Assembly (NCBI GenBank): GCA_003135415.1
Contig: PLBP01000035.1
Span: forward strand, 50,075-114,074
From: Hyphomicrobiales bacterium
GTDB lineage: Bacteria > Pseudomonadota > Alphaproteobacteria > Rhizobiales > Xanthobacteraceae
Direction: 5' to 3'
Length of the DNA stretch: 64,000 nucleotides
In this document: positions 5,272-15,350 of the stretch, one piece after another
How the letters are laid out: each line of letters begins with the position of its first letter
How positions within the stretch are numbered: position 1 is the stretch's first letter
The notes under the pieces: model-generated
The model's input: only the letters and a program-made list of their open reading frames with translations
The model's database searches: none
What the model was told of the DNA's origin: nothing
Translations under genes and position numbers: made by a program

Positions 5272-5802
5272 TTAGCGCGAGGCCATCTCGATCAAGGCGA
5301 TCAGGCCGCTTAGGATCTCGACCGGCCGCGGCGGGCAGCCGGGAATGCGAAGATCGACCGGCACCACGTCCTCGACCGCGCCGATACAGGCGTAGCTGCC
5401 CTTGAAGAGGCCGCCGGTGCAGGCGCAATCGCCGAGTGCCACGACCCATTTCGGAGCGGGCGTGGCATTGTAGGTGCGCTCGAGCGCCGTTTTCATATTG
5501 GCGGTGACCGGACCCGTGACCAGAAGAACGTCGGCATGGCGGGGCGAAGCGACGAACTTCAGGCCGAAGCGCTCGAGGTCATAGACCGGATTGTTGAGCG
5601 CGTGGATTTCGAGCTCGCAGCCATTGCATGAGCCCGCATCGACCTCGCGGATCGAAAGCGCGCGGCCGAGCACGCGGCGCGCGGAATCCTGAAGCGTCTT
5701 CGCGAGTTCCTTCGCCGCCTTGTCGCCGGACGAGGGCCCCGCGATGGTGGCGGGCTTTTCCACGAGCGCCCGCAGGAGAAGCTTTTCGAGCCGCGCGCTC
5801 AT
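5272..5802 (-). CDS. hyfI: Hydrogenase-4-like small subunit (HyfI/NuoB family)
   Basis: This 176-residue subunit is homologous to HyfI/HycG and NuoB and would hold the proximal [4Fe-4S] cluster next to the large subunit. The cysteine ligands appear intact: SCNGCELEIHAL, GDCACTGGLF and PGCPPRPVEIL. Its start overlaps the large-subunit stop by 4 bp. It is the last gene of a six-gene operon, and no ferredoxin-like HyfA/HyfH gene follows. The intact cluster ligands contrast with the lost nickel ligands of its partner. The physiological redox partner is unknown. Confidence 0.88.
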   Translation of the reverse strand: MSARLEKLLLRALVEKPATIAGPSSGDKAAKELAKTLQDSARRVLGRALSIREVDAGSCNGCELEIHALNNPVYDLERFGLKFVASPRHADVLLVTGPVTANMKTALERTYNATPAPKWVVALGDCACTGGLFKGSYACIGAVEDVVPVDLRIPGCPPRPVEILSGLIALIEMASR

Positions 5803-7292
5803 AGATCGTGCCCCGAATAGGAGCAGTTGAAGGACTTATTGCAAAGCGGGAAGTCGGCGACGATGTTGCCCTCCACCGCCGCCTCCAACAGCGGCCATTG
5901 AAACCACGACGGGTCGCGCGGATGGCAGCGTAGAACCGTGCCGCCGGCGGCGAGCTTCAGCCAGACGAAAATATCGCCGCGGAAGCCTTCCACCATTGCC
6001 GTGCCCTCGCGTTCCTCGCCAACAGAAGAAATCGGGGCTTTGATTGCACCGCTCGGCAACTGATCGAGGACTTGCGCGATCAGCGCGAGACTCTGCTCGA
6101 TTTCCCGGATGCGGATCCAGACGCGGGCATTGACGTCGCCTTCCTGCAGCAGCGGAACGGCGAATTGCAACTCGTCATAGGGCGCATAAGCGAGATCGCG
6201 GCGCGCGTCGAACGCGCGGCCGGACGCGCGCCCAACATAGCCGCCCGGCGCGAAGCGACGCGCGAGCTCGGCGGTGACGATTCCGGTCGTGACCATGCGA
6301 TCTTGCAGCGAGGGCGTGTCGTCATAGATTGCCACGAGTTCGGGAAAATCCCGTGAGATCGTGGCGAGTAGCGCGCGCAGCCGCGCCTCGCCTTCCTTCT
6401 TGAGATTGACCGCGACCCCGCCCGGAACGATGCAATCGCGCATCAGGCGATGGCCGAAGGCGATGTCGGCGGCTTGCAGGACTTCCTCGCGCAGAATTCC
6501 GCAATGGGCTTGGACCGCGACGAAAGAAGCGTCGTTGCAGATCGCGCCGAAGTCGCCGAGATGATTGGCGATGCGCTCCAGCTCCGCCATCAGCGCGCGC
6601 AAATAGGTGGCGCGAGCAGGCACCGAAACGTCCAATGCGGCTTCCGCCGCGCGCGCAAACGCATAGGCGTAGGCTACGGTCGAATCGCCGGATACGCGCC
6701 CGATCAGCTTCGCGGCGTGATCGAGCGGCGCCCCCGCCATCAGCCGCTCGGTGCCCTTGTGGACATAGCCGAGGCGCTCCTCGAGCCGGACCACGGTTTC
6801 CCCGTTCGCCGTGAAGCGGAAATGGCCGGGTTCGATGATGCCCGCATGCACCGGCCCCACCGGAATCTCGTGCAAGCCTTCGCCCTCGGCCGGCAGGAAG
6901 GCGTAGCCGGTATCATGGACCACGCGCGCGAGTCGGCGCTTCTCGGCAAGCGGCATGGTGATCGTCCACTTGCCGTGATCGAGCCAGGGGCGCGTGTCGG
7001 GAAGTCCTTGCGGCTCGTGCCCGAAGAGATCGCGGATCGCACGCTCGAGCCGAATGGCGGGCGCGTGATGCGCGCCGACCGAGGGATAGCGCCCCTCTTC
7101 CACTTTCACCGTGACGATGCGCGGCTCGTCGCTTCCGATGCCGCGCAAGGCCATGTGCACGCGATCAACTTCCGCGAACAGCGCGAACAACTCGCCCTCG
7201 CCGCGGCCGAGCGCTTCGGCGCATTCGCCCCAGGCCGCCTTGTCGATTTCCTGGCGCAACCAGAGTTTCATTTCGTCAATGCGTTTTGCCAT
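5799..7292 (-). CDS. hyfG: Hydrogenase-4-like large subunit (HyfG/NuoCD family) lacking Ni-Fe cysteines
   Basis: This 497-residue protein has a short NuoC-like N-terminal part (to about residue 110) and a NuoD/HycE-like large-subunit domain (IPVGPVHAGIIEPGHFRF, YVHKGTERLM). Group 4 [NiFe] hydrogenases carry a CxxC after RV in the first metal motif; here the sequence is RVSGDST (residues 199-205), with both cysteines replaced by Ser. In the C-terminal motif only the first cysteine seems kept (FNCSYSGHDL). It therefore cannot bind a normal Ni-Fe centre. Such proteins occur in Ehr (energy-converting hydrogenase-related) complexes of unresolved function. The start at 7292 lies 4 bp after the preceding stop. 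Confidence 0.88.
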   Translation of the reverse strand: MAKRIDEMKLWLRQEIDKAAWGECAEALGRGEGELFALFAEVDRVHMALRGIGSDEPRIVTVKVEEGRYPSVGAHHAPAIRLERAIRDLFGHEPQGLPDTRPWLDHGKWTITMPLAEKRRLARVVHDTGYAFLPAEGEGLHEIPVGPVHAGIIEPGHFRFTANGETVVRLEERLGYVHKGTERLMAGAPLDHAAKLIGRVSGDSTVAYAYAFARAAEAALDVSVPARATYLRALMAELERIANHLGDFGAICNDASFVAVQAHCGILREEVLQAADIAFGHRLMRDCIVPGGVAVNLKKEGEARLRALLATISRDFPELVAIYDDTPSLQDRMVTTGIVTAELARRFAPGGYVGRASGRAFDARRDLAYAPYDELQFAVPLLQEGDVNARVWIRIREIEQSLALIAQVLDQLPSGAIKAPISSVGEEREGTAMVEGFRGDIFVWLKLAAGGTVLRCHPRDPSWFQWPLLEAAVEGNIVADFPLCNKSFNCSYSGHDL

Positions 7293-7296
7293 CGCC

Positions 7297-8742
7297 TCAC
7301 CCGAGCATTTTCGCGACCGCCTCGAACCAGCGAACGAGGGGTTGCGGCAAGTAAATTCCCGCGGCGAGCACGATGGCAAGATGCGCATAGAGCGGAAACA
7401 AGGTCGCCATGGGAATTGCTTCGGAGGGCGAGGGTTTGCCGAATAGAACGTCCTGCAAGCGGATGATGAGAGCGCCGAAGGCAATCAGTAGTCCGAAGCC
7501 GAAAATCGCTGCGAGCCACGGCTCGCGCGCAAACGTCGAGGTCGCGAGCAGGAATTCCGCCTTAAAAATCCCGAACGGCGGCAGCCCCGCGATCGCCACC
7601 ACCGCAAGCGCAAACGCGAAGGCGAGCGAAGGATTGCTCTCCGACAATCCGTGAATTTGCGCGAAGCGCTGCGTACCCTTCGCCTGCGCGATGTGACCGA
7701 CCGCGAAGAAGATCGCGGACTTGGTGAGCGAGTGCATGGTCATCTGCAGGAGGCCGGCGAAATTCGCCAGCGCCCCGCCGAGGCCGAAGGCGAAGGTGAC
7801 GATGCCCATATGCTCGATCGAGGAATAAGCAAAGAAGCGTTTGATGTCGCGGCGGCGGTAAAGCATGAATGCCGCGAAGACGAGCGAGACGAGGCCCATG
7901 ATCACCATCAGCGGCGCGGGCGCAATCGCGTTGGGATTGACCGCGAGCAGAATCTTGAATCGCAACAGCGCGTAAAGCGCGACGTTCAAGAGGAGGCCCG
8001 AGAGCACCGCGGAAATCGGCGTCGGGCCTTCGGCGTGGGCGTCGGGAAGCCATGCGTGCAGCGGCGCGAGGCCAATCTTGGTGCCGTAGCCCAGCAATAG
8101 GAATATGAAAGCGAGATTGAGAATACCGGCATCGAAGGTTGCGGCGCGCGCGACGAGCGTGGTCCACACCATCGAGTCGAAGCCAGCACCAATGACCGGC
8201 TGCGCTGCGAGATAGACCAGGATGGTGCCGAACAGCGCGAGCGCGATGCCGACGCTGCCGAGGATGAAATATTTCCACGCGGCTTCCAGCGCCTCGTGGG
8301 TGCGGTAGATGCCAACCATCAGCACCGTCGTGAGCGTGGCGATTTCTACCGCCACCCACATCAGGCCGATATTGTTGGCGACGAGCGCGAGGTTCAACGC
8401 GAACATCAGCGTCTGATACATCGCGTGATAAAAACGCAAATTGATCGGCGTGAGGCGACCGATCTTCAATTCGTGCGCGATGTAGCTCGCGCTGAAGACG
8501 CTCGTGGTGAAGCCGACGAAAGTCGTGAGCGTGATGAAAACATTATTGAGATCGTCGATGAAGAGATAGTGGTCTAGCGCCGGCCGCTGCAACAGGAGCA
8601 AGGCAGCCGCGAGAAAGGTGAAGAGCGCGGCCGCGACATTGACGGCGGCACCGATGCGGTAGTTCGGCAGAAACGCGAGCAATCCCGCGGCGAGCGCCGG
8701 GATCACAAGCACGGCCATGACGGCGGCATCCGCGATACTCAT
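7297..8742 (-). CDS. hyfF: Hydrogenase-4-like antiporter-type subunit HyfF (NuoL/M/N family)
   Basis: This 481-residue polytopic membrane protein belongs to the proton-conducting Mrp/NuoL-M-N family. Recognisable segments are MWVAVEIATLTTVLMVGIYR, GLAPLHAWLPDAHAEGPTPI and RFFAYSSIEHMGIVTFAFGL, which contain the conserved Glu, Lys and His residues of the ion channel. It is the second antiporter-like subunit of the operon, so the complex should have at least two ion-translocating modules. Its ATG overlaps the hyfE stop by 4 bp. Confidence 0.9.
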   Translation of the reverse strand: MSIADAAVMAVLVIPALAAGLLAFLPNYRIGAAVNVAAALFTFLAAALLLLQRPALDHYLFIDDLNNVFITLTTFVGFTTSVFSASYIAHELKIGRLTPINLRFYHAMYQTLMFALNLALVANNIGLMWVAVEIATLTTVLMVGIYRTHEALEAAWKYFILGSVGIALALFGTILVYLAAQPVIGAGFDSMVWTTLVARAATFDAGILNLAFIFLLLGYGTKIGLAPLHAWLPDAHAEGPTPISAVLSGLLLNVALYALLRFKILLAVNPNAIAPAPLMVIMGLVSLVFAAFMLYRRRDIKRFFAYSSIEHMGIVTFAFGLGGALANFAGLLQMTMHSLTKSAIFFAVGHIAQAKGTQRFAQIHGLSESNPSLAFAFALAVVAIAGLPPFGIFKAEFLLATSTFAREPWLAAIFGFGLLIAFGALIIRLQDVLFGKPSPSEAIPMATLFPLYAHLAIVLAAGIYLPQPLVRWFEAVAKMLG

Positions 8743-9401
8743 GCGCGATCCCCGCGGAAGCGATCGAGCGCGCCGACATCCACCGTGTCGAAGCGCTCGC
8801 GGATGCGGAAGAGAAAAATACCGATCACGATGAAGGCGATCAGGATCGAAAAGGCGACTGAAATCTCCACCACGAGCGGCATACCCTTGGCGCCTGTGGC
8901 GGCAAGCACGAGGCCGTTCTCGAGCGACATGAAGCCGATGACCTGGCTCACGGCGTTGCGGCGGGACACCATCATCAGAAGCCCAAGCAGGATCACCGCG
9001 AGTGCGAAGGCGAGATCCTCGCGCGCGAACGGATCGGCACCGCCGGTGACACGCAAGATCACCACCATCGAGAGTGCCACGAGGCCGATGCCGGCGAGCA
9101 TGGTGAGGCCGATGCCGCCCACCGTCTCGATCTCGCGATGAATCCCGAGGCGCACGATGATCCGGCGGAGCACCACCGGAATCACGATCGCCTTGAAGAC
9201 GAGCGCAATCGCGGCGGTGACGTAGAGATGCGGCGCGTCCTGCACGTAAGCCTGCCAGCCCACCGACAGCGCGAGCACGAGCGCATGCAGCGCGAAAATA
9301 TGTAGGAGCGCGGTGAGGCGGTCCTGATAGAGCTGCATGAAGCTCAGCAGCACGAGCGTGCCGGCGAGAAAATGCGCGATATCGAAGTTAAGGCCGCGCA
9401 T
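8739..9401 (-). CDS. hyfE: Hydrogenase-4-like membrane subunit HyfE (NuoK-like)
   Basis: This 220-residue membrane protein has about seven predicted helices. Its C-terminal half resembles NuoK, with the Glu-containing helix in VIGFMSLENGLVLAATGAKG. HyfE subunits combine NuoJ- and NuoK-like functions in hydrogenase-4 complexes. The ATG at 9401 directly follows the hyfC stop (9402-9404), and the 3' end overlaps hyfF by 4 bp. The placement fits the Hyf gene order B-C-E-F-G-I with A, D and H missing. Confidence 0.88.
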   Translation of the reverse strand: MRGLNFDIAHFLAGTLVLLSFMQLYQDRLTALLHIFALHALVLALSVGWQAYVQDAPHLYVTAAIALVFKAIVIPVVLRRIIVRLGIHREIETVGGIGLTMLAGIGLVALSMVVILRVTGGADPFAREDLAFALAVILLGLLMMVSRRNAVSQVIGFMSLENGLVLAATGAKGMPLVVEISVAFSILIAFIVIGIFLFRIRERFDTVDVGALDRFRGDRA

Positions 9402-10358
9402 CTAGAGGCTCCGCGATACGAACAGGAGAAGGGCCGCGAGCAGGCCAAGCATCAAGGCGCCGCCGAGAAATTCCGGCACCCGGAAGACGCGCATCTTCGC
9501 GATCGACATTTCGAAGGCGGCGAGCAGAAATCCGATGACCAGGAGCTTGGCGACATAAGCGGCAACGCCGTAGGCGTAGATTTCCGGTCCTGCGGCAGGC
9601 GTCGCAAGCCCCCATGGCACAAATACGCAGCCGATTAACGAGGCATAGAGAACGAGTTTCAATTGCGCTGCGAGATCGATCAGCGCGAGATGACGGCCGG
9701 AATATTCGAGCACCATGGCTTCGTGCACCATGGTGAGTTCGAGATGCGTCGCCGGATTGTCGACCGGAATGCGTGCGTTCTCCGCGATCGCCACCATAAT
9801 GAGCGCGATCAGCGCCAGGCCGAGCGAGACACGGAGCCCCACTTCGTTCGAGGCCATGAAGGCCGCGATGGTCGAGAGCTGGGTCGAGCCCGCGACGAGC
9901 GCGAGCGTAAACACGACCATCAGCATCGCGGGCTCGGCGAGGGAGGCGATCATCACCTCGCGCGAGGAGCCGATGCCGCCGAAGCTTGTGCCGACGTCGA
10001 GGCCGGCGAGCGCCTGAAAGAAGCGCGCGCTGCCAAGGAGCGCGATGATCGCGATGAGATCGGCCGACCAGCTGAACACCAGCCCGCGCGCGAAGGTCGG
10101 AACCAGCGCCGCCGCCACCCAGGTAATTGCGAAAACAATATAGGGCACCGCGCGGAAGAGCCACGACGCGTTCTCGGCGAGCACGGCTTCCTTGCCGAGG
10201 AGGCGCATGAGTTCGCGATAGGGCTGCAACAACGGCGGCCCGCGCCGGCGCATCAGGCGCGCCTTCACCTTGCGCACGAATCCGGTGACGAGCGGCGCGA
10301 GTGCGAGCACGAGCCCCATTTGCGCGGCTTGAATGGCGAGATCTTGGATCACAGCCAT
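9402..10358 (-). CDS. hyfC: Hydrogenase-4-like membrane subunit HyfC (NuoH family)
   Basis: This 318-residue membrane subunit is homologous to NuoH/HycD, which couples the redox arm to the ion-pumping arm. The hallmark loop is ENARIPVDNPATHLELTMVH followed by EAMVLEYSGRHLALID. An N-terminal basic loop (GFVRKVKARLMRRRGPPLLQPYREL) is also typical. The ATG at 10358 (MAVIQDLAIQ) overlaps the hyfB 3' end by 10 bp; an open frame continues upstream but only shadows hyfB. It probably forms the membrane interface for HyfG and HyfI. Confidence 0.9.
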   Translation of the reverse strand: MAVIQDLAIQAAQMGLVLALAPLVTGFVRKVKARLMRRRGPPLLQPYRELMRLLGKEAVLAENASWLFRAVPYIVFAITWVAAALVPTFARGLVFSWSADLIAIIALLGSARFFQALAGLDVGTSFGGIGSSREVMIASLAEPAMLMVVFTLALVAGSTQLSTIAAFMASNEVGLRVSLGLALIALIMVAIAENARIPVDNPATHLELTMVHEAMVLEYSGRHLALIDLAAQLKLVLYASLIGCVFVPWGLATPAAGPEIYAYGVAAYVAKLLVIGFLLAAFEMSIAKMRVFRVPEFLGGALMLGLLAALLLFVSRSL

Positions 10359-12358
10359 AGCGCGAACACCAGGAGCAAAAGGATGAGGGCGAGAAACACG
10401 AGGCTCAGATAACGGCGGATTGTGAGAAACTGCAGTCGGTTGAGTTTTTCCGCCGCATGCGCCACCGAGCCGATCGCCGGCGCGTAGAGCGCGTCCCAAA
10501 TGAGATCGTGAATGCCGGCATCGAAGCGCGCCGCCCGCATCGAGCCCGGCGGCGGCATCTCCACGGTATCGCGCGCGCGGAATACGAGCGTGCCGAACAC
10601 GCGGCGGATCGGCTGGGCGAAAGAGGAGGCGGTGTATTGCGTCGCCGGGCTTGGATCCGGAAAGCCGCAATCCCAGGCGGGCCCGCGCCGGACTTTCTTC
10701 GAGGCAAGAGCGTGAATGACGAAGGCGGTGAAAAATCCGTTGAAGGTGATGAAGAGAAGAACCAGGAGCCCGTTATAGGAGCTGCGGCCTTCCGCCACCG
10801 GCACCAGCGTGAGCCAGGGCTGCGATAGCTGCACCGGCAAGCGCTCGCCCGCGATCTGGCCGACCGCGGGCGCGAGCGCGTCGATGAAGACGCCGGAGAA
10901 GGTTCCAGCTGCGAAACAAAGTGCGGCGAGGACGAACATCGCGGCTAACGAGAACCGGTCGGTTTCCTCGGCCTCGCGCGCCGCGCGCGTGCGCGGGCGG
11001 CCGAGAAACGTGATGCCGAACGCTTTCACGAAGCAGGCGGCGGCAAGCGCCGCTGACAGCGCGAGCAAGGCGCCGACTGCCGGCACCAGAAACTTCAAAC
11101 CCCATTCGGGAAGATCGGGGCTCTGCAAAATCGCTTGAAAAGTCAGCCATTCGGAGACGAAGCCGTTCAGCGGCGGTAGCGCCGAGATCGCGACGCAGCC
11201 GACGAGAAAGGTAAAGGCAGTGAGCGGCATGCGATGGATCAGGCCGCCGAGATCCTCCAGGTCGCGGGTGCCGCTCGCGTTCTGCACCGCGCCGGCGCCG
11301 AAGAACAACAGGCTCTTGAACACCGAATGATTGAACACATGAAAGATCGCCGCGGTCGCGGCGAGTGCCGCGGCGCGCGTGAAACCGTGGGCCTTGAAGG
11401 CGAGCGCGAGGCCAAGCCCGATGTAGATGATTCCGATGTTTTCGACCGTGTGATAGGCCAAGAGCCGCTTCAGATCGTGCTGCATCATGGCGTAGAGCAC
11501 ACCGAGCACTGTCGTGATGCCTGCGAGCGCGAGCACGATCATCGCCCACCAGGGCGCGGGCGCCCCCATCAAATCGAAGACGATGCGGATGAAGCCGTAG
11601 ACCGCGACCTTGGTCATCACGCCGCTCATCAGCGCCGAGACGTGGCTCGGCGCCGCCGCGTGCGCGGGCGGCAGCCATGCGTGCAGCGGCACAAGACCCG
11701 ACTTCGATCCCGCGCCGACGATCGCCAAGAGAAGCACGACGGCGGCCTCGATCGGCGCAAGCGCGTGCCCACGCATCGCGTCAAACAGATAATTCCCGCC
11801 GCCCGCCGCCATCAAACCAAAGGCGAAAATCAGCGCCAGCGCGCCGATGAAGGCCATGACAAGATAAAGCGCGCCGGCGCGGCGGTTTTCCTCTTCGCGG
11901 TGCTTGACCACGACCAGCGCCCAGGAGGAAAGCGACATGAATTCCCAGGCGACGAGAAATGAAAAAGCGTCGTCGGCGACGAGCACGAGATTCATGCCGA
12001 GCACGAACAGGGCATAAAACGGGAGCACGCGCGCAGGCTCTTTTTCTTCGCGACCGTAACCGAGCGCGTAAAGGCTCGAGAGCGCGATCGCCACGTTGAC
12101 GATCACGATGAAGGTCGCGGAAAGCGCGTCGAGCCGGAGGCTCACGCCGGTTTCCGCGAGGCCGATCGGGAGAGAAACGACCGAGATTCCGCCCTTCCAC
12201 AGCGCGAACGCGCCGGAAGCCGCGGCTGCCACGGCGACGAGCGCGCTCAACAAATAAAAAATGAACGGGCCGCGGGCGGCTCGCGCAAGCGGCACCCCGG
12301 CGGCGGCAAGCGCGAGCAGTACCGCCGTGATGGCGCCGGCATGGTTCGCGACATTCAT
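10349..12358 (-). CDS. hyfB: Hydrogenase-4-like antiporter-type subunit HyfB (NuoL family)
   Basis: This is the first gene of the hyf-like operon and encodes a 669-residue polytopic protein. The antiporter core is recognisable in FLVAWEFMSLSSWALVVVKH, LVPLHAWLPPAHAAAPSHVS and LLAYHTVENIGIIYIGLGLA, which carry the conserved Glu, Lys and His. A C-terminal region after a cytoplasmic stretch ends in a final hydrophobic helix (LSLVFLALILLLLVFALWL). The ATG at 12358 has a GGGAGACGA ribosome site. Upstream, a perfect 12-bp palindrome (CCGCTATAGCGG, 12394-12405) lies in the leader and could be a regulatory site; that is inference. Confidence 0.9.
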   Translation of the reverse strand: MNVANHAGAITAVLLALAAAGVPLARAARGPFIFYLLSALVAVAAAASGAFALWKGGISVVSLPIGLAETGVSLRLDALSATFIVIVNVAIALSSLYALGYGREEKEPARVLPFYALFVLGMNLVLVADDAFSFLVAWEFMSLSSWALVVVKHREEENRRAGALYLVMAFIGALALIFAFGLMAAGGGNYLFDAMRGHALAPIEAAVVLLLAIVGAGSKSGLVPLHAWLPPAHAAAPSHVSALMSGVMTKVAVYGFIRIVFDLMGAPAPWWAMIVLALAGITTVLGVLYAMMQHDLKRLLAYHTVENIGIIYIGLGLALAFKAHGFTRAAALAATAAIFHVFNHSVFKSLLFFGAGAVQNASGTRDLEDLGGLIHRMPLTAFTFLVGCVAISALPPLNGFVSEWLTFQAILQSPDLPEWGLKFLVPAVGALLALSAALAAACFVKAFGITFLGRPRTRAAREAEETDRFSLAAMFVLAALCFAAGTFSGVFIDALAPAVGQIAGERLPVQLSQPWLTLVPVAEGRSSYNGLLVLLFITFNGFFTAFVIHALASKKVRRGPAWDCGFPDPSPATQYTASSFAQPIRRVFGTLVFRARDTVEMPPPGSMRAARFDAGIHDLIWDALYAPAIGSVAHAAEKLNRLQFLTIRRYLSLVFLALILLLLVFALWL

Positions 12359-12489
12359 CGCTCGTCTCCCATGCCGCGCTTCACCATTCGCCCCCGCTAT
12401 AGCGGCGCTAGGATATCACATCGCATTCCCGCATAAGCACGAATGCGCGCAGACATAGCGCTCGCGGCTGTGAAAATCCGGCGGAGGGG

Positions 12490-13377
12490 CTACTGAGTTT
12501 GCGAAGTGGGATGCGGCGGCGCCGCCAGCACGGGCCTGAGCGTATCCGAGGAAGGCCGCGGTACGGGGGCCGCTGCGGGTAAGGCGGCATCGCCGGGTTT
12601 GGGCGCGGCGACGACGGGTTTCGGCACCGCCGGACGTCCGAGCCCGAGCACGCGGCCGATCACAATTTCATGCAGGCGCGCGGATTTATCGATCGAGGTG
12701 TGACTGATATCGGAGCGAGCGCGCAGATCGACATTCGAAAGCTCGCCGTGGAAGCCGGCGCCGCGCGGCACCGCGGCGCCCCAACCGTTGTTCGATTGAT
12801 AAAGATTGACGAAACGCGCGGTGGTGCCGCCCGTCAGCGGAACCGGATGCACCGGATCGAAGGCAACGACCAGCGCCACGGGAATTCCCATCTGGCCGAG
12901 GCGGTTCGCCATGTAGATCACCGCGTCGCCGCCTAACGAATGGCCAACGACGACGATCTGCGTCCGCGACGAACGCCAGCGCGCGGCGGCGTCCTGGCAA
13001 AGCGATTCCCACTGGCCGTATTCGTAGACGTTGGCCGCGATCCCGCGCCGCTGCAGCTTGGCGGCGAGATCGTCCATGCCAAGCGAAAATACGTTGAGCA
13101 GACCGCGCAAGATGTAAACGTAGGGCCGGCCCGTATCAGCGGTCGGGGAGGCGGTCGTAACGGCGGCGCTCTGCACAGGCGCGGAATGCACAGCCGGCTG
13201 TTTCGAAGCCGGCTGGACGGTGGTGGGCTGGGTAGCAACGGGCTGGGCGGCAGCGGGCCGCACTGCCGGCTGAGGCGCAAACTCGCTGGTCTGGCTCCAA
13301 GCGCCAGCCGCACCGGCAATCGTCGTTGCCATTGCGACCGCCAGGATCGTGATCGCAATCCGCGAAAATCTGGACAT
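12490..13377 (-). CDS. Secreted alpha/beta hydrolase (lipase-like, GHSLGG)
   Basis: This gene encodes 295 residues from the ATG at 13377. A signal peptide (MSRFSRIAITILAVAMATTIAGAAGA) is followed by a low-complexity linker rich in Pro, Ala, Gln and Val (about residues 30-80). The alpha/beta-hydrolase domain has the nucleophile elbow VVVGHSLGGDAVIYMANRLG, an Asp in VVAFDPVHPVP and a possible catalytic His in SDISHTSIDKSARLHE. The C-terminus is again Pro/Ala-rich. A longer frame from 13500 would precede the signal peptide and is unlikely. The substrate is unknown. Confidence 0.8.
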   Translation of the reverse strand: MSRFSRIAITILAVAMATTIAGAAGAWSQTSEFAPQPAVRPAAAQPVATQPTTVQPASKQPAVHSAPVQSAAVTTASPTADTGRPYVYILRGLLNVFSLGMDDLAAKLQRRGIAANVYEYGQWESLCQDAAARWRSSRTQIVVVGHSLGGDAVIYMANRLGQMGIPVALVVAFDPVHPVPLTGGTTARFVNLYQSNNGWGAAVPRGAGFHGELSNVDLRARSDISHTSIDKSARLHEIVIGRVLGLGRPAVPKPVVAAPKPGDAALPAAAPVPRPSSDTLRPVLAAPPHPTSQTQ

Positions 13378-13505
13378 GATACCGAACAAAGTCCCCAAAG
13401 CCGTTCCTATCGAGCGAATATTTAGAACAAGCAAACGCAGGTTTGCCAGACCGCAATTGCCGCATTGCAAGATTGTCAAAAGATGTTGCACGAAAGACAC
13501 TTACC

Positions 13506-14111
13506 TCAATATAGGCCCGGTAAAACCCGCGACGTTCGGCGCATATAGGCGCGATATTCATCGCCGAAGGCGTCGCACATCAGCCGCTCCTCTTCTCCGA
13601 CCCGGCTGAAGAAAAGGGTGCCGAATCCGACAATCCCGGCGAGTCCAGCGACCCAATTGGGCAAAAGCAGGGCCTGGGCGATCGCCCACAGCCAAAAGGC
13701 CGAATACATGGGATGGCGCACAAGCGCATAGACGCCGCCGGTAATCAGCTTGTGGCTTTCGCGAATGTCGAGGCTCACCGACCAATTGCGCCCGAGAGCC
13801 TTATGGGTGAGGTAGAAAAGCCAAAGCGAAGCCGCGAATACCAAGACCCCGAGCCAGGCGAGCGCCGGCACGAACGGGTAGTCGGCGAAGCCCAGGAATC
13901 GGAACCGGGCGCTCTGGAATTGGCTCGCGATATAGGCAAGCGGGATGATGCCGAGGCCGGTAAGCGAGATCGCCATCAGGACCTTTTCGCGCAGACCCCG
14001 GCCACTCAATTTGACGGCGGCCTTGCGGGCGCGACGCCGCGCCGGGATGCGGATGACGAACCAAATCACCGCGCCGATCAGAAAGACGATCATGGCGAGC
14101 GTCGGCGTCAT
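13506..14111 (-). CDS. Isoprenylcysteine carboxyl methyltransferase-like membrane protein
   Basis: This 201-residue protein has about five membrane helices and the C-terminal S-adenosylmethionine-binding signature of the ICMT/PEMT/NnrU superfamily: LITGGVYALVRHPMYSAFWL, then SRVGEEERLMCDAFGDEYRAYM. Bacterial members methylate phospholipids or other small lipophilic substrates; true prenyl-cysteine substrates are not expected. It starts 3 bp after the preceding hydrolase stop, so the two are co-transcribed. It is followed by a second, secreted hydrolase. Confidence 0.85.
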   Translation of the reverse strand: MTPTLAMIVFLIGAVIWFVIRIPARRRARKAAVKLSGRGLREKVLMAISLTGLGIIPLAYIASQFQSARFRFLGFADYPFVPALAWLGVLVFAASLWLFYLTHKALGRNWSVSLDIRESHKLITGGVYALVRHPMYSAFWLWAIAQALLLPNWVAGLAGIVGFGTLFFSRVGEEERLMCDAFGDEYRAYMRRTSRVLPGLY

Positions 14112-14114
14112 CGC

Positions 14115-15350
14115 TCAATTACTCTTGCCGCCGGCGCGCGCGGCCTTGGCGGGAGCCTCAGTGCCCGCATAGGAGCCGTCTTCGGCGAAGGCCTCGCACA
14201 GGCGGTCTCGTTCAGCCACACGGCGCGCAAGCGGCGCCGGGCCGCAACAAATCTGGAAATAGTCGTAGAAATAGCGAAGCTCGTTCCCCATCCCGAACTG
14301 CCGGTGAAGGCGAAAAAAGTTGCCCCAGAAGCGCTTGTAGGTCGCGGGCTCGAGCATGCGGCGGATTTTGACCTGCTGTACGATCGGTCGTTCCCGGTCG
14401 GGCAAGCCCATCTCCACCACGGGATCGGTCTTGTAGAAGCTGATGACGTCGACGATCGCCTGGTACTCCACCCAATTGACGGAAGGCGCATCGGCGACGC
14501 GGCCGGTTGCGATGCGAATCCATTCGGCCTTGGGATGCAGCGCGATCTTCAAGAGTGAAGAGCCGGTCGACATCAACCACAGCACCGGCCCGTTCTTTCC
14601 GAGCGCGGGATCGAGCTTCAGCGCGCGATCCACGACCTCCATCATCAGCGCGCCGCCGAGGCTGTGGCCGAAAACCACCACTTCGTCATAGGAGCGGTCG
14701 CGGTCGCGCTTGACGAGCTCGCGGGCAAAGCGATCGATTCGAGCGTCGAGGCCGACACGGCTCTGGTGAACGAGCTCGTGGGCGAAAATCCAGTCGTCGA
14801 GCAGATAGTGAAAAAGAAAAAGCCGTCCCGGCCAATAAAGCGAGCCCGCAAAGACCGCGATCGCGAGCAACGCCGCGAGGGGTGCCGGAATCGGCAGGCC
14901 GACGCGGGTCAAGACGTAGGGAACTGCGGCCGCTATTGCGATTAATCCCGCGAGCAGGATAAGCGGATAGAGGAAGAACAGGAAATAGCGGACGCTCGAG
15001 CGCAAATAGCGGTAGGCGGCGCCCGAAATAATAAAGTCGCCGAAGGCGAGGATCCCGCGTGGCACGCGCTCGACATTGGAGCGGGCGAAATCGGCGATGA
15101 CAAAATCGTCCCATCGCAGCAAGACGAAATCGGTTTCGGTGCGCCAGTTCGGCCCCCTGGCATCGATCTTCCAGTTGGCGAGCCCGTCCTTGTCGGACGT
15201 GACGGGCTCGGAAACCTCAGTGGTGGCGTTCCAGGTTTTTTCGAAGCGCTCGATCTCGCGCACGAAACGCTGATGCCACCAATCAGCGTTGATCGGCTCG
15301 TAGCCCCCGACGCAGAGGAAACAACGCTTTTTGACGATCTCGGCTACCAT
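14115..15350 (-). CDS. Membrane-inserted alpha/beta hydrolase of unknown function
   Basis: This 411-residue protein has a GHSLGG nucleophile elbow (YDEVVVFGHSLGGALMMEVV, about residue 230). Before the elbow two hydrophobic helices are inserted (residues about 121-147 and 155-182), so the enzyme is probably anchored in the inner membrane. The N-terminus (KRCFLCVGGYEPINADWWHQRF) looks like the first strand of the hydrolase fold. The ATG at 15350 was chosen; a longer frame upstream would run into the acpXL promoter. It heads a short operon with the ICMT-like gene and is divergent from the VLCFA cluster. No characterised family was recognised. Confidence 0.75.
   Translation of the reverse strand: MVAEIVKKRCFLCVGGYEPINADWWHQRFVREIERFEKTWNATTEVSEPVTSDKDGLANWKIDARGPNWRTETDFVLLRWDDFVIADFARSNVERVPRGILAFGDFIISGAAYRYLRSSVRYFLFFLYPLILLAGLIAIAAAVPYVLTRVGLPIPAPLAALLAIAVFAGSLYWPGRLFLFHYLLDDWIFAHELVHQSRVGLDARIDRFARELVKRDRDRSYDEVVVFGHSLGGALMMEVVDRALKLDPALGKNGPVLWLMSTGSSLLKIALHPKAEWIRIATGRVADAPSVNWVEYQAIVDVISFYKTDPVVEMGLPDRERPIVQQVKIRRMLEPATYKRFWGNFFRLHRQFGMGNELRYFYDYFQICCGPAPLARRVAERDRLCEAFAEDGSYAGTEAPAKAARAGGKSN

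Follow-up and report, generated by a model that had tools for sequence, protein, structure and literature searches.

Genes of the operon

The stretch analyzed here (the window, 64,000 nucleotides of contig PLBP01000035.1 from a Hyphomicrobiales bacterium) carries on its minus strand, at 5272-12358, the six genes hyfBCEFGI. Their products resemble subunits of hydrogenase 4, and the sequences place the complex, near certainly, in the energy-converting (Ech) hydrogenase-related (Ehr) family (Table 1). It has a large subunit homologous to those of group 4 hydrogenases, no Ni-Fe CxxC...CxxC, and antiporter-like and small subunits encoded in the same cluster. The six reading frames are open throughout and, because adjacent genes overlap or sit a few bases apart, they are likely transcribed as one operon. 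A first-pass annotation of the window had already recognized six linked homologs of HyfB, C, E, F, G, and I and had assigned them to Ehr instead of the nickel hydrogenases, and both points held.

Table 1 Features of the operon in window coordinates (aa, amino acids).
Feature	Position	Strand	Description	Family match
hyfB	10349..12358	-	669 aa; large antiporter-like membrane subunit	Pfam Proton_antipo_M 4.3e-56
hyfC	9402..10358	-	318 aa; NuoH-like membrane anchor; ATG at 10358, 10-base overlap with hyfB	
hyfE	8739..9401	-	220 aa; NuoK-like membrane subunit	NCBIfam hydrogenase 4 membrane subunit 5e-25, under cut-off
hyfF	7297..8742	-	481 aa; second antiporter-like membrane subunit	NCBIfam hydrogenase 4 subunit F
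hyfG	5799..7292	-	497 aa; large subunit, EhrL type, NuoC-like plus NuoD/HycE-like	
hyfI	5272..5802	-	176 aa; small subunit, one hydrogenase-type [4Fe-4S] site (C59, C62, C126, C156)	
HyfG Ser201-Gly-Asp203-Ser204 codons	6681..6692	-	replace first CxxC	
HyfG Asn489-Cys490-Ser491-Tyr-Ser493-Gly494 codons	5811..5828	-	replace D-P-C-x-x-C	

The Ni-Fe site of HyfG

In alignments, the RVSGDS motif of HyfG lies opposite R-x-CGIC in both Escherichia coli HycE (7z0s) and Pyrococcus MbhL (6cfw), which puts Ser201 and Ser204 on the first CxxC, as the first-pass annotation had proposed. The same annotation had placed Ser493 on a C-terminal Cys, which is off register: SFNCSYSGHD of HyfG matches SLDPCYSCTD of HycE without gaps, anchored by the invariant Asp480, Ser487, and Asp496, and in this register Ser491 and Gly494 occupy the two C-terminal Cys positions while Cys490 falls opposite the Pro. 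No set of four ligand cysteines was found elsewhere in HyfG. As judged from the alignment, the window's HyfG keeps none of the four Ni-Fe ligand cysteines, and the loss is complete.

Large subunits were then extracted from 173 loci and scored with the family profile; 158 exceeded 430 bits and 15 fell short of that value. The 158 homologous HyfG rows, representing 141 distinct sequences, mostly read S-G-D-S and N-C-S-Y-S-G at the ligand sites, with Ser at position 201 in 154 rows, Ser at 204 in 140, Ser at 491 in 151, and Gly at 494 in 158. Asp203, Ser487, Asn489, Gly494, and Asp496 were invariant (158/158); in an earlier, separate HyfG alignment, the fragment L033 was excluded when invariant positions were listed. 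A single Cys occurred in a ligand column in 3/158 rows, and two or more in none. All four Cys were present in 10 of the 11 mid-scoring control rows. Among the 15 low-scoring rows, whose type labels were assigned here from motifs and the tree described below, four Cys were found in six rows of the formate hydrogenlyase (FHL) type and five of the Ech type, two in two MBS-like rows, and none in NuoD or in the row of genome G150.

Because 141 distinct sequences carry nearly uniform replacement residues, the loss of the ligands is, on this alignment, a family trait rather than decay. The missing catalytic ligands could by themselves suggest a decaying remnant of a hydrogenase operon, a reading that we consider highly improbable: the uniformity of the replacements refutes it, and the gene order is kept and the window's six frames are open.

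The end of the protein was also compared. In group 4a hydrogenases, a C-terminal stretch is cleaved off upon nickel insertion. Each Ehr row ends one residue past Asp496, compared with 33 residues in 6/6 FHL rows. We rejected this short C-terminus as proof against nickel maturation, as all five Ech-type rows, which have four Cys, also end one residue after the corresponding position; in these rows, C-terminal length separates Ehr from FHL only.

Residues kept in the pocket, the cluster, and the membrane arm

The Pfam and NCBIfam assignments agree with the Hyf names, some of them under curated cut-offs. HyfB was matched by the NCBIfam hydrogenase 4 subunit B model (835.7 bits, cut-off 667) and by HycC of FHL (7z0s_C, 3e-66), HyfC by Pfam NADHdh (1.4e-38) and FHL HycD (7z0s_D, 4.8e-42), HyfF by its NCBIfam model (806 bits, cut-off 533) and NuoM (1.4e-32), HyfG by HycE (7z0s_E, 6.6e-80 with the family profile), and HyfI by Pfam Oxidored_q6 (5.7e-35) and MbhJ (6cfw_J, 3.6e-37). 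HyfE had no relatives among solved structures at an E-value of 1. For hyfG and hyfC, we preferred the ATG codons at 7292 and 10358 as starts: the TTG-started frames (561 aa for hyfG) overlap their upstream genes (hyfF in the case of hyfG), and the ATG at 7292 also reproduces the Ser201/Ser204 numbering.

The cluster cysteines of HyfI, which the first-pass annotation had described as retained, are intact in 102/102 rows. Their CxxC spacing is that of hydrogenases (C59-N-G-C62), and the adjacent Cys pair typical of NuoB is absent. Residues kept in at least 93% of the rows include E139, K219, K250, and E403 of HyfB, E133, K222, and E396 of HyfF, E161 and E179 of HyfE, and the acid chain of HyfC, which supports a complete, antiporter-like, and putatively ion-pumping membrane arm. 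Asn253 of HyfF, found in place of the usual Lys of transmembrane segment 8 in 100/101 rows, was dismissed as a special trait, as Asn also occurs in one of three HyfF stretches from FHL controls.

In HyfG, Glu154, which belongs to the EPGHFR motif and aligns to E21 of MbhL, is kept in 156/158 rows, and Glu435 and Arg438 in 158/158. In total, 45 charged HyfG residues, these three and Asp203 among them, are at least 93% conserved among the rows with a letter at that position (106 rows). Read from conservation, the pocket is remodeled, not ruined, and the whole complex is under strong selection.

This conservation bears on whether Ehr could be a redox-gated cation/proton antiporter, in which HyfB and HyfF would act in an Mrp-like manner and HyfG and HyfI would only sense redox state, with no catalytic turnover. 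Such a gate would fit the proximity of HyfB to Mrp antiporter subunits (6z16_A, 1.3e-47), the single cluster with no widely linked electron partner, and a pocket devoid of Ni-Fe or quinone residues. We nevertheless regard it as unlikely: the 45 conserved charged residues of HyfG suggest chemistry in the pocket, and the small Mrp subunits have no counterpart in the six genes, as judged by subunit names with no search made.

Gene order and neighboring genes

The order B-C-E-F-G-I on one strand was found in 64/64 complete named loci and in all 22 complete loci among the 26 from outside the window's order, and the partial loci (16 named, 4 outside) were consistent with it so far as present. A few loci have sequence inserted between genes, e.g., 2.2 kb between hyfG and hyfI in L093. 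Two loci, L194 and L198 (genomes G328 and G351), have two hyfB matches in tandem ahead of hyfC, which suggests an extra pumping module.

For the neighbor survey, 235 flanking open reading frames (ORFs) were called, and 126 of them (nearest on each side, above 115 and below 900 aa) were given to Pfam. The family view covers the 25 commonest of 179 families, with HypE next to hyfB in two loci (L110 and L119) lying outside it. The commonest families had four members among the 126, Tex being contributed by four Azospirillum loci. The one widely shared neighbor is a small gene for an XRE-like helix-turn-helix protein (PF01381). Among the 60 named loci with enough sequence, 35 have it in the orientation of hyfB and no more than about 0.65 kb upstream of that gene (e.g., L097, 4586-4852); some loci (L058, L064, L065, and L072) have a second copy downstream of hyfI. 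No significant match to this gene was found in the window or in the 26 outside-order loci. The largest other non-core clusters, by eye, were an ABC ATPase (12 loci) and an SDR (8 loci), at scattered distances. This survey of homologs was a check that the first-pass annotation had suggested. In the window itself, the operon is flanked on one side by genes for an RND adaptor, OsmC, PCu(A)C, and SnoaL, and on the other by genes for an unmatched protein, an isoprenylcysteine methyltransferase, and a protein with a weak alpha/beta hydrolase match; these flanks suggest no partner.

Maturation genes

Of the Hyp families, HypD was the one searched for genome-wide, and the window's genome, which is 95% complete, has none. 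The only other 49-kDa-type protein of this genome is NuoD, encoded on a different contig. In our sample of the order, 19/35 Ehr carriers have HypD and 16/35 lack it, compared with 14/45 non-carriers having it; these counts, like those for nifH and the formate dehydrogenase (FDH) alpha subunit given below, are confounded by kinship and are used for dispensability only.

Six carriers, all from one genus (G180, G203, G223, G243, G260, and G292), have hypD immediately ahead of hyfB, 6.5-6.7 kb from hyfG. In only 2 of the 106 loci searched, L110 and L119, do hypC, hypD, and hypE directly precede hyfB in the same orientation. In G223, the one carrier followed further, the run continues with hypF, hypB- and hypA-type genes, HupH, a cytochrome b, and both subunits, large and small, of a true Ni-Fe enzyme (among the hyp-linked regions, L216 was scanned in part and L215 with one protein). 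Because this run leads into an uptake hydrogenase cluster, its gene content indicates that these hyp genes serve a client of their own. The HyfG proteins of the hyp-linked genomes still read SGDS and NCSYSG, with no ligand Cys, so the adjoining hyp genes are not evidence for nickel in Ehr. The first-pass annotation would have taken hyp genes dedicated to the locus as refuting its reading; HypD is missing from the window's genome, but hypD does adjoin the operon in that one genus.

That Ehr might be a working [NiFe] hydrogenase with unusual ligands is invited by the family names, by automatic annotation as hydrogenase 4, and by these hyp neighbors. We hold this to be almost certainly wrong, and so far as sequence allows it is refuted, as the four Cys are replaced, in the hyp-linked genomes too, HypD is missing from a nearly complete genome and from close to half of the carriers, and the linked hyp genes of G223 lead to another enzyme. 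Of the features of group 4a [NiFe] hydrogenases, the window's complex lacks the four Cys, the C-terminal extension, a HypD in the genome, and HyfA/HyfH.

Ferredoxin and partners in trans

The first-pass annotation had seen no HyfA/HyfH ferredoxin gene, and indeed no ORF of at least 60 aa with CxxCxxCxxxC occurs within 3 kb of the window's operon, against two or three two-motif ferredoxin ORFs in 4/4 FHL-type control loci. These subunits are absent across the Ehr loci: a CxxCxxCxxxC ORF was present within 3 kb in 6/106 (short contigs limiting some), and only that of L081 resembled a real ferredoxin-type protein.

One relative points to the entry of electrons. Genome G150 encodes a divergent, Cys-less six-gene complex (L208, G150:C22:154000-173999, 6929-14329 on the minus strand) in the order C-E-F-G-I-B, with a HyfG-like row reading RVSAVGG and a 265-aa HyfI with Fer4 domains fused in front; because of this fusion, it suggests that electrons enter Ehr at HyfI from ferredoxin. 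Four genomes of the same genus carry an ordinary Ehr instead. Among the matches listed from 60 genomes at 1e-40, no fused Fer4-HyfI was found beyond G150, the other five matches covering the HyfI part only.

We also looked for partners encoded elsewhere in the genomes. A match to nifH was found in 17/35 Ehr-bearing genomes and in 7/45 related Ehr-free genomes (Fisher p 0.003; confounded by kinship). This association would suit a pump running in reverse, in which the proton gradient would drive electrons uphill from quinol to ferredoxin and so supply nitrogenase or further low-potential reactions. We find this quite unlikely, because two genera supply 10 of the 17 nifH carriers and 18/35 carriers, including the window's genome, have no nifH match at 1e-80.

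Alternatively, a separate FDH or CO dehydrogenase (CODH) could feed HyfI. In the parts of the literature drawn on here, the subunits of the Geobacter Ehr (GSU0739-45) are raised on formate (PMC7894505), an FDH-Ehr is proposed for Margulisbacteria (PMC6349859), and the hyfBCEFGI set of Nitrospira lies next to CODH in one Nitrospira (PMC5596200); the window's genome, for its part, encodes FDH-alpha and CoxL-like proteins elsewhere. However, FDH- and CODH-type families are absent from the 25 commonest neighbor families. FDH-alpha passes its cut-off in 25/35 carriers (43/45 non-carriers) and falls under it in the remaining 10, and CoxL passes in only 7/35. Four near-complete carriers of one genus have just two weak FDH-alpha matches each (best ~1e-15) and no CoxL match at 1e-150. 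As a universal rule the formate or CO link is weakened, and we judge it distinctly improbable. On gene content, none of FDH, CODH, nitrogenase, and HypD is obligatory for Ehr.

A proposed ferredoxin-fed pump

Our preferred reading, held tentatively and with somewhat less than even confidence, is that Ehr would be a ferredoxin-fed, redox-driven proton pump with a remodeled pocket and, as probable acceptor, a quinone. Since Ehr has no ferredoxin subunits of its own, a diffusible low-potential one-electron carrier, most likely ferredoxin, would dock on HyfI itself. The single HyfI cluster would then pass the electron on to an acceptor that is small or lipid-soluble, a quinone being the likeliest, and that would occupy the cavity left by the Ni-Fe site. 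The resulting changes in conformation and charge where HyfG, HyfI, and HyfC meet would drive protons through HyfC, E, F, and B. Of these parts, pumping by Ehr is likely from the conserved membrane arm, while the identities of donor and acceptor are guesses; donor, acceptor, and direction are the weakest parts of the model.

In its favor stand the replaced ligands with the kept Glu154, the conserved residues of the membrane arm, the fixed gene order, the ferredoxin subunits missing from Ehr but seen in the FHL loci, the Fer4 fusion of G150, and the MBS precedent described below. Several observations count against the ferredoxin-fed pump. HyfG has Ile and Gly in columns 153 and 202, where NuoD has its quinone His and Tyr, and because this pair is missing the quinone acceptor is a guess. 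The roles of MbhL E21 and of the quinone-site residues H38 and Y87 follow PMC7684303, used in part, and the His and Tyr of the window genome's NuoD were equated with H38 and Y87 from the motif. The AlphaFold model of HyfG has a pLDDT below 50 at 105-179 and 466-497, i.e., in the pocket. No widely linked partner gene, ferredoxin or other, was found in cis, and the fused G150 relative is a single genome on a branch of 2.98 that may not be Ehr proper. The hypD genes beside the operon in the one genus belong on this side as well.

A wider proposal, which seems to us doubtful though conceivable, is that the nearly invariant S-G-D-S/N-C-S-x-x-G pocket with its kept Glu154 might be an active site distinct from the Ni-Fe, quinone-dyad, and MBS-type sites of the complex I superfamily, and would run a so far undescribed ferredoxin-driven ion pump found across soil- and plant-associated Proteobacteria.

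Distribution and phylogeny

Close HyfG relatives occur in 35/297 genomes of the order (E-values up to 2.3e-140, own genome counted). Across the phylum, 62/398 sampled genomes have an Ehr-type large subunit scoring at least 455 bits, and the 11 matches that follow do not exceed 272 bits; four that were inspected have all four Cys, and one is a fragment. The named loci, the best 80 of 580, span Mesorhizobium, Bradyrhizobium, Rhizobium, Azospirillum, Rhodopseudomonas, Acetobacteraceae, and others. Rhizobium johnstonii 3841, for instance, has the six genes on plasmid pRL11 (L069). In addition, 61 plasmid records match HyfG at 1e-60, including some from Cupriavidus, Rhizobium, and Azospirillum; these are known from the overall match, their motifs not having been checked. 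Their large subunits are annotated as NADH dehydrogenase subunit C, NADH-quinone oxidoreductase subunit C, or hydrogenase large subunit, and in two records (H12 and H13) as the hydrogenase expression protein HypE, a mislabel.

In a tree of 43 rows, the 28 Ehr rows form one clade (100/99). A further split (96/90) groups Ehr with the FHL type, apart from NuoD, MBS-like, and Ech-type rows, and the Ehr large subunits are nearest to the HycE side of the tree; this split carries a long-branch warning and is tentative. Cys-less subunits stand on two separate sides of the Ni-Fe enzymes, which points, under the same warning, to two or more losses of the Ni-Fe ligands.

Other group 4 relatives were met in the same genomes. 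In L176 and L177 (G086:C100 and G012:C1) and L209, from two genomes of the window's order, the large subunit reads RICVPDPVP and SLDACPPEVDR and so retains two of the four ligand Cys, as described for MBS; these subunits grouped with NuoD in the tree. Besides an Ehr operon, genomes G027 and G266 carry a true FHL-type hydrogenase (L204 and L205 with L016 and L021), whose genes are accompanied by ferredoxin ORFs and share their contig with an FDH-alpha match.

Comparison with known systems

The published Ehr systems are known to us from parts of the cited papers. The same six-gene set is described in Cupriavidus metallidurans CH34 and C. necator H16 (PMC2864759; H16_A2196-A2201 in the latter) and, as mentioned above, in Nitrospira. 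A missing CxxC or missing Cys is described in Sulfobacillus, Nitrospira, ammonia-oxidising archaea, and CPR bacteria, so that Sulfobacillus and Nitrospira share with the window a group-4-like large subunit devoid of Ni-Fe ligands. No difference between the named Ehr and the window's complex was identified, the two being likened by published descriptions with no direct alignment of reference proteins. The mycobacterial Ehr operon lies within Rv0081-Rv0087 and is induced during anaerobic adaptation (PMC2799521). No Ehr mutant or activity data were found in the open-access literature searched, and none of the consulted text on the family settles its function, in agreement with the first-pass annotation.

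Among enzymes of solved structure, FHL/hydrogenase-4 (HycE, HyfG; 7z0s) is the best match for HyfG, HyfB, and HyfC and shares the kinds of subunit and the Glu of EPGHFR, but it has the Ni ligands, the C-terminal extension, and the HyfA/HyfH-like ferredoxins that the window's Ehr lacks. With complex I (NuoB, D, H, K, M/N, L), Ehr has in common the ancestry of its subunits, an ion-pumping arm, and the absence of the Ni-Fe Cys; it differs by having six genes only, no nearby NuoI-like ferredoxin ORF, a hydrogenase-type CxxC in HyfI, and no NuoD quinone His/Tyr. The sulfane reductase MBS of Pyrococcus (6u8y), a group 4 relative that lost its Ni-Fe site and still pumps, is a precedent for new chemistry in the cavity. 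According to the portion of PMC7684303 used here, MBS keeps two of the four Cys, lacks E21, and has a three-Cys cluster, and loss of the Ni-Fe site left a cavity used by hydrophobic substrates. Ehr, in contrast, lacks the four Cys (rarely having one) and keeps the Glu and all four cluster Cys.

Significance

To the known Ehr family, this analysis adds the replacement signature, a strict gene order, the lack of a widely shared partner in cis, the dispensability of FDH, CODH, and nitrogenase, the upstream XRE gene, and one diverged relative whose HyfI carries a ferredoxin fusion. Three of these points, namely the register S-G-D-S/N-C-S-Y-S-G, the association with XRE, and the findings on dispensability, are absent from the Ehr literature cited here, as far as the portions consulted extend, and may already be published. 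Ehr-type subunits are common, yet they are misleadingly annotated in public records. The fixed signature and gene order, together with the dispensability of FDH, CODH, nitrogenase, and HypD, narrow the possible functions of Ehr and indicate genomes for clean tests, and the apparently repeated loss of the Ni-Fe ligands bears on the origin of complex I.

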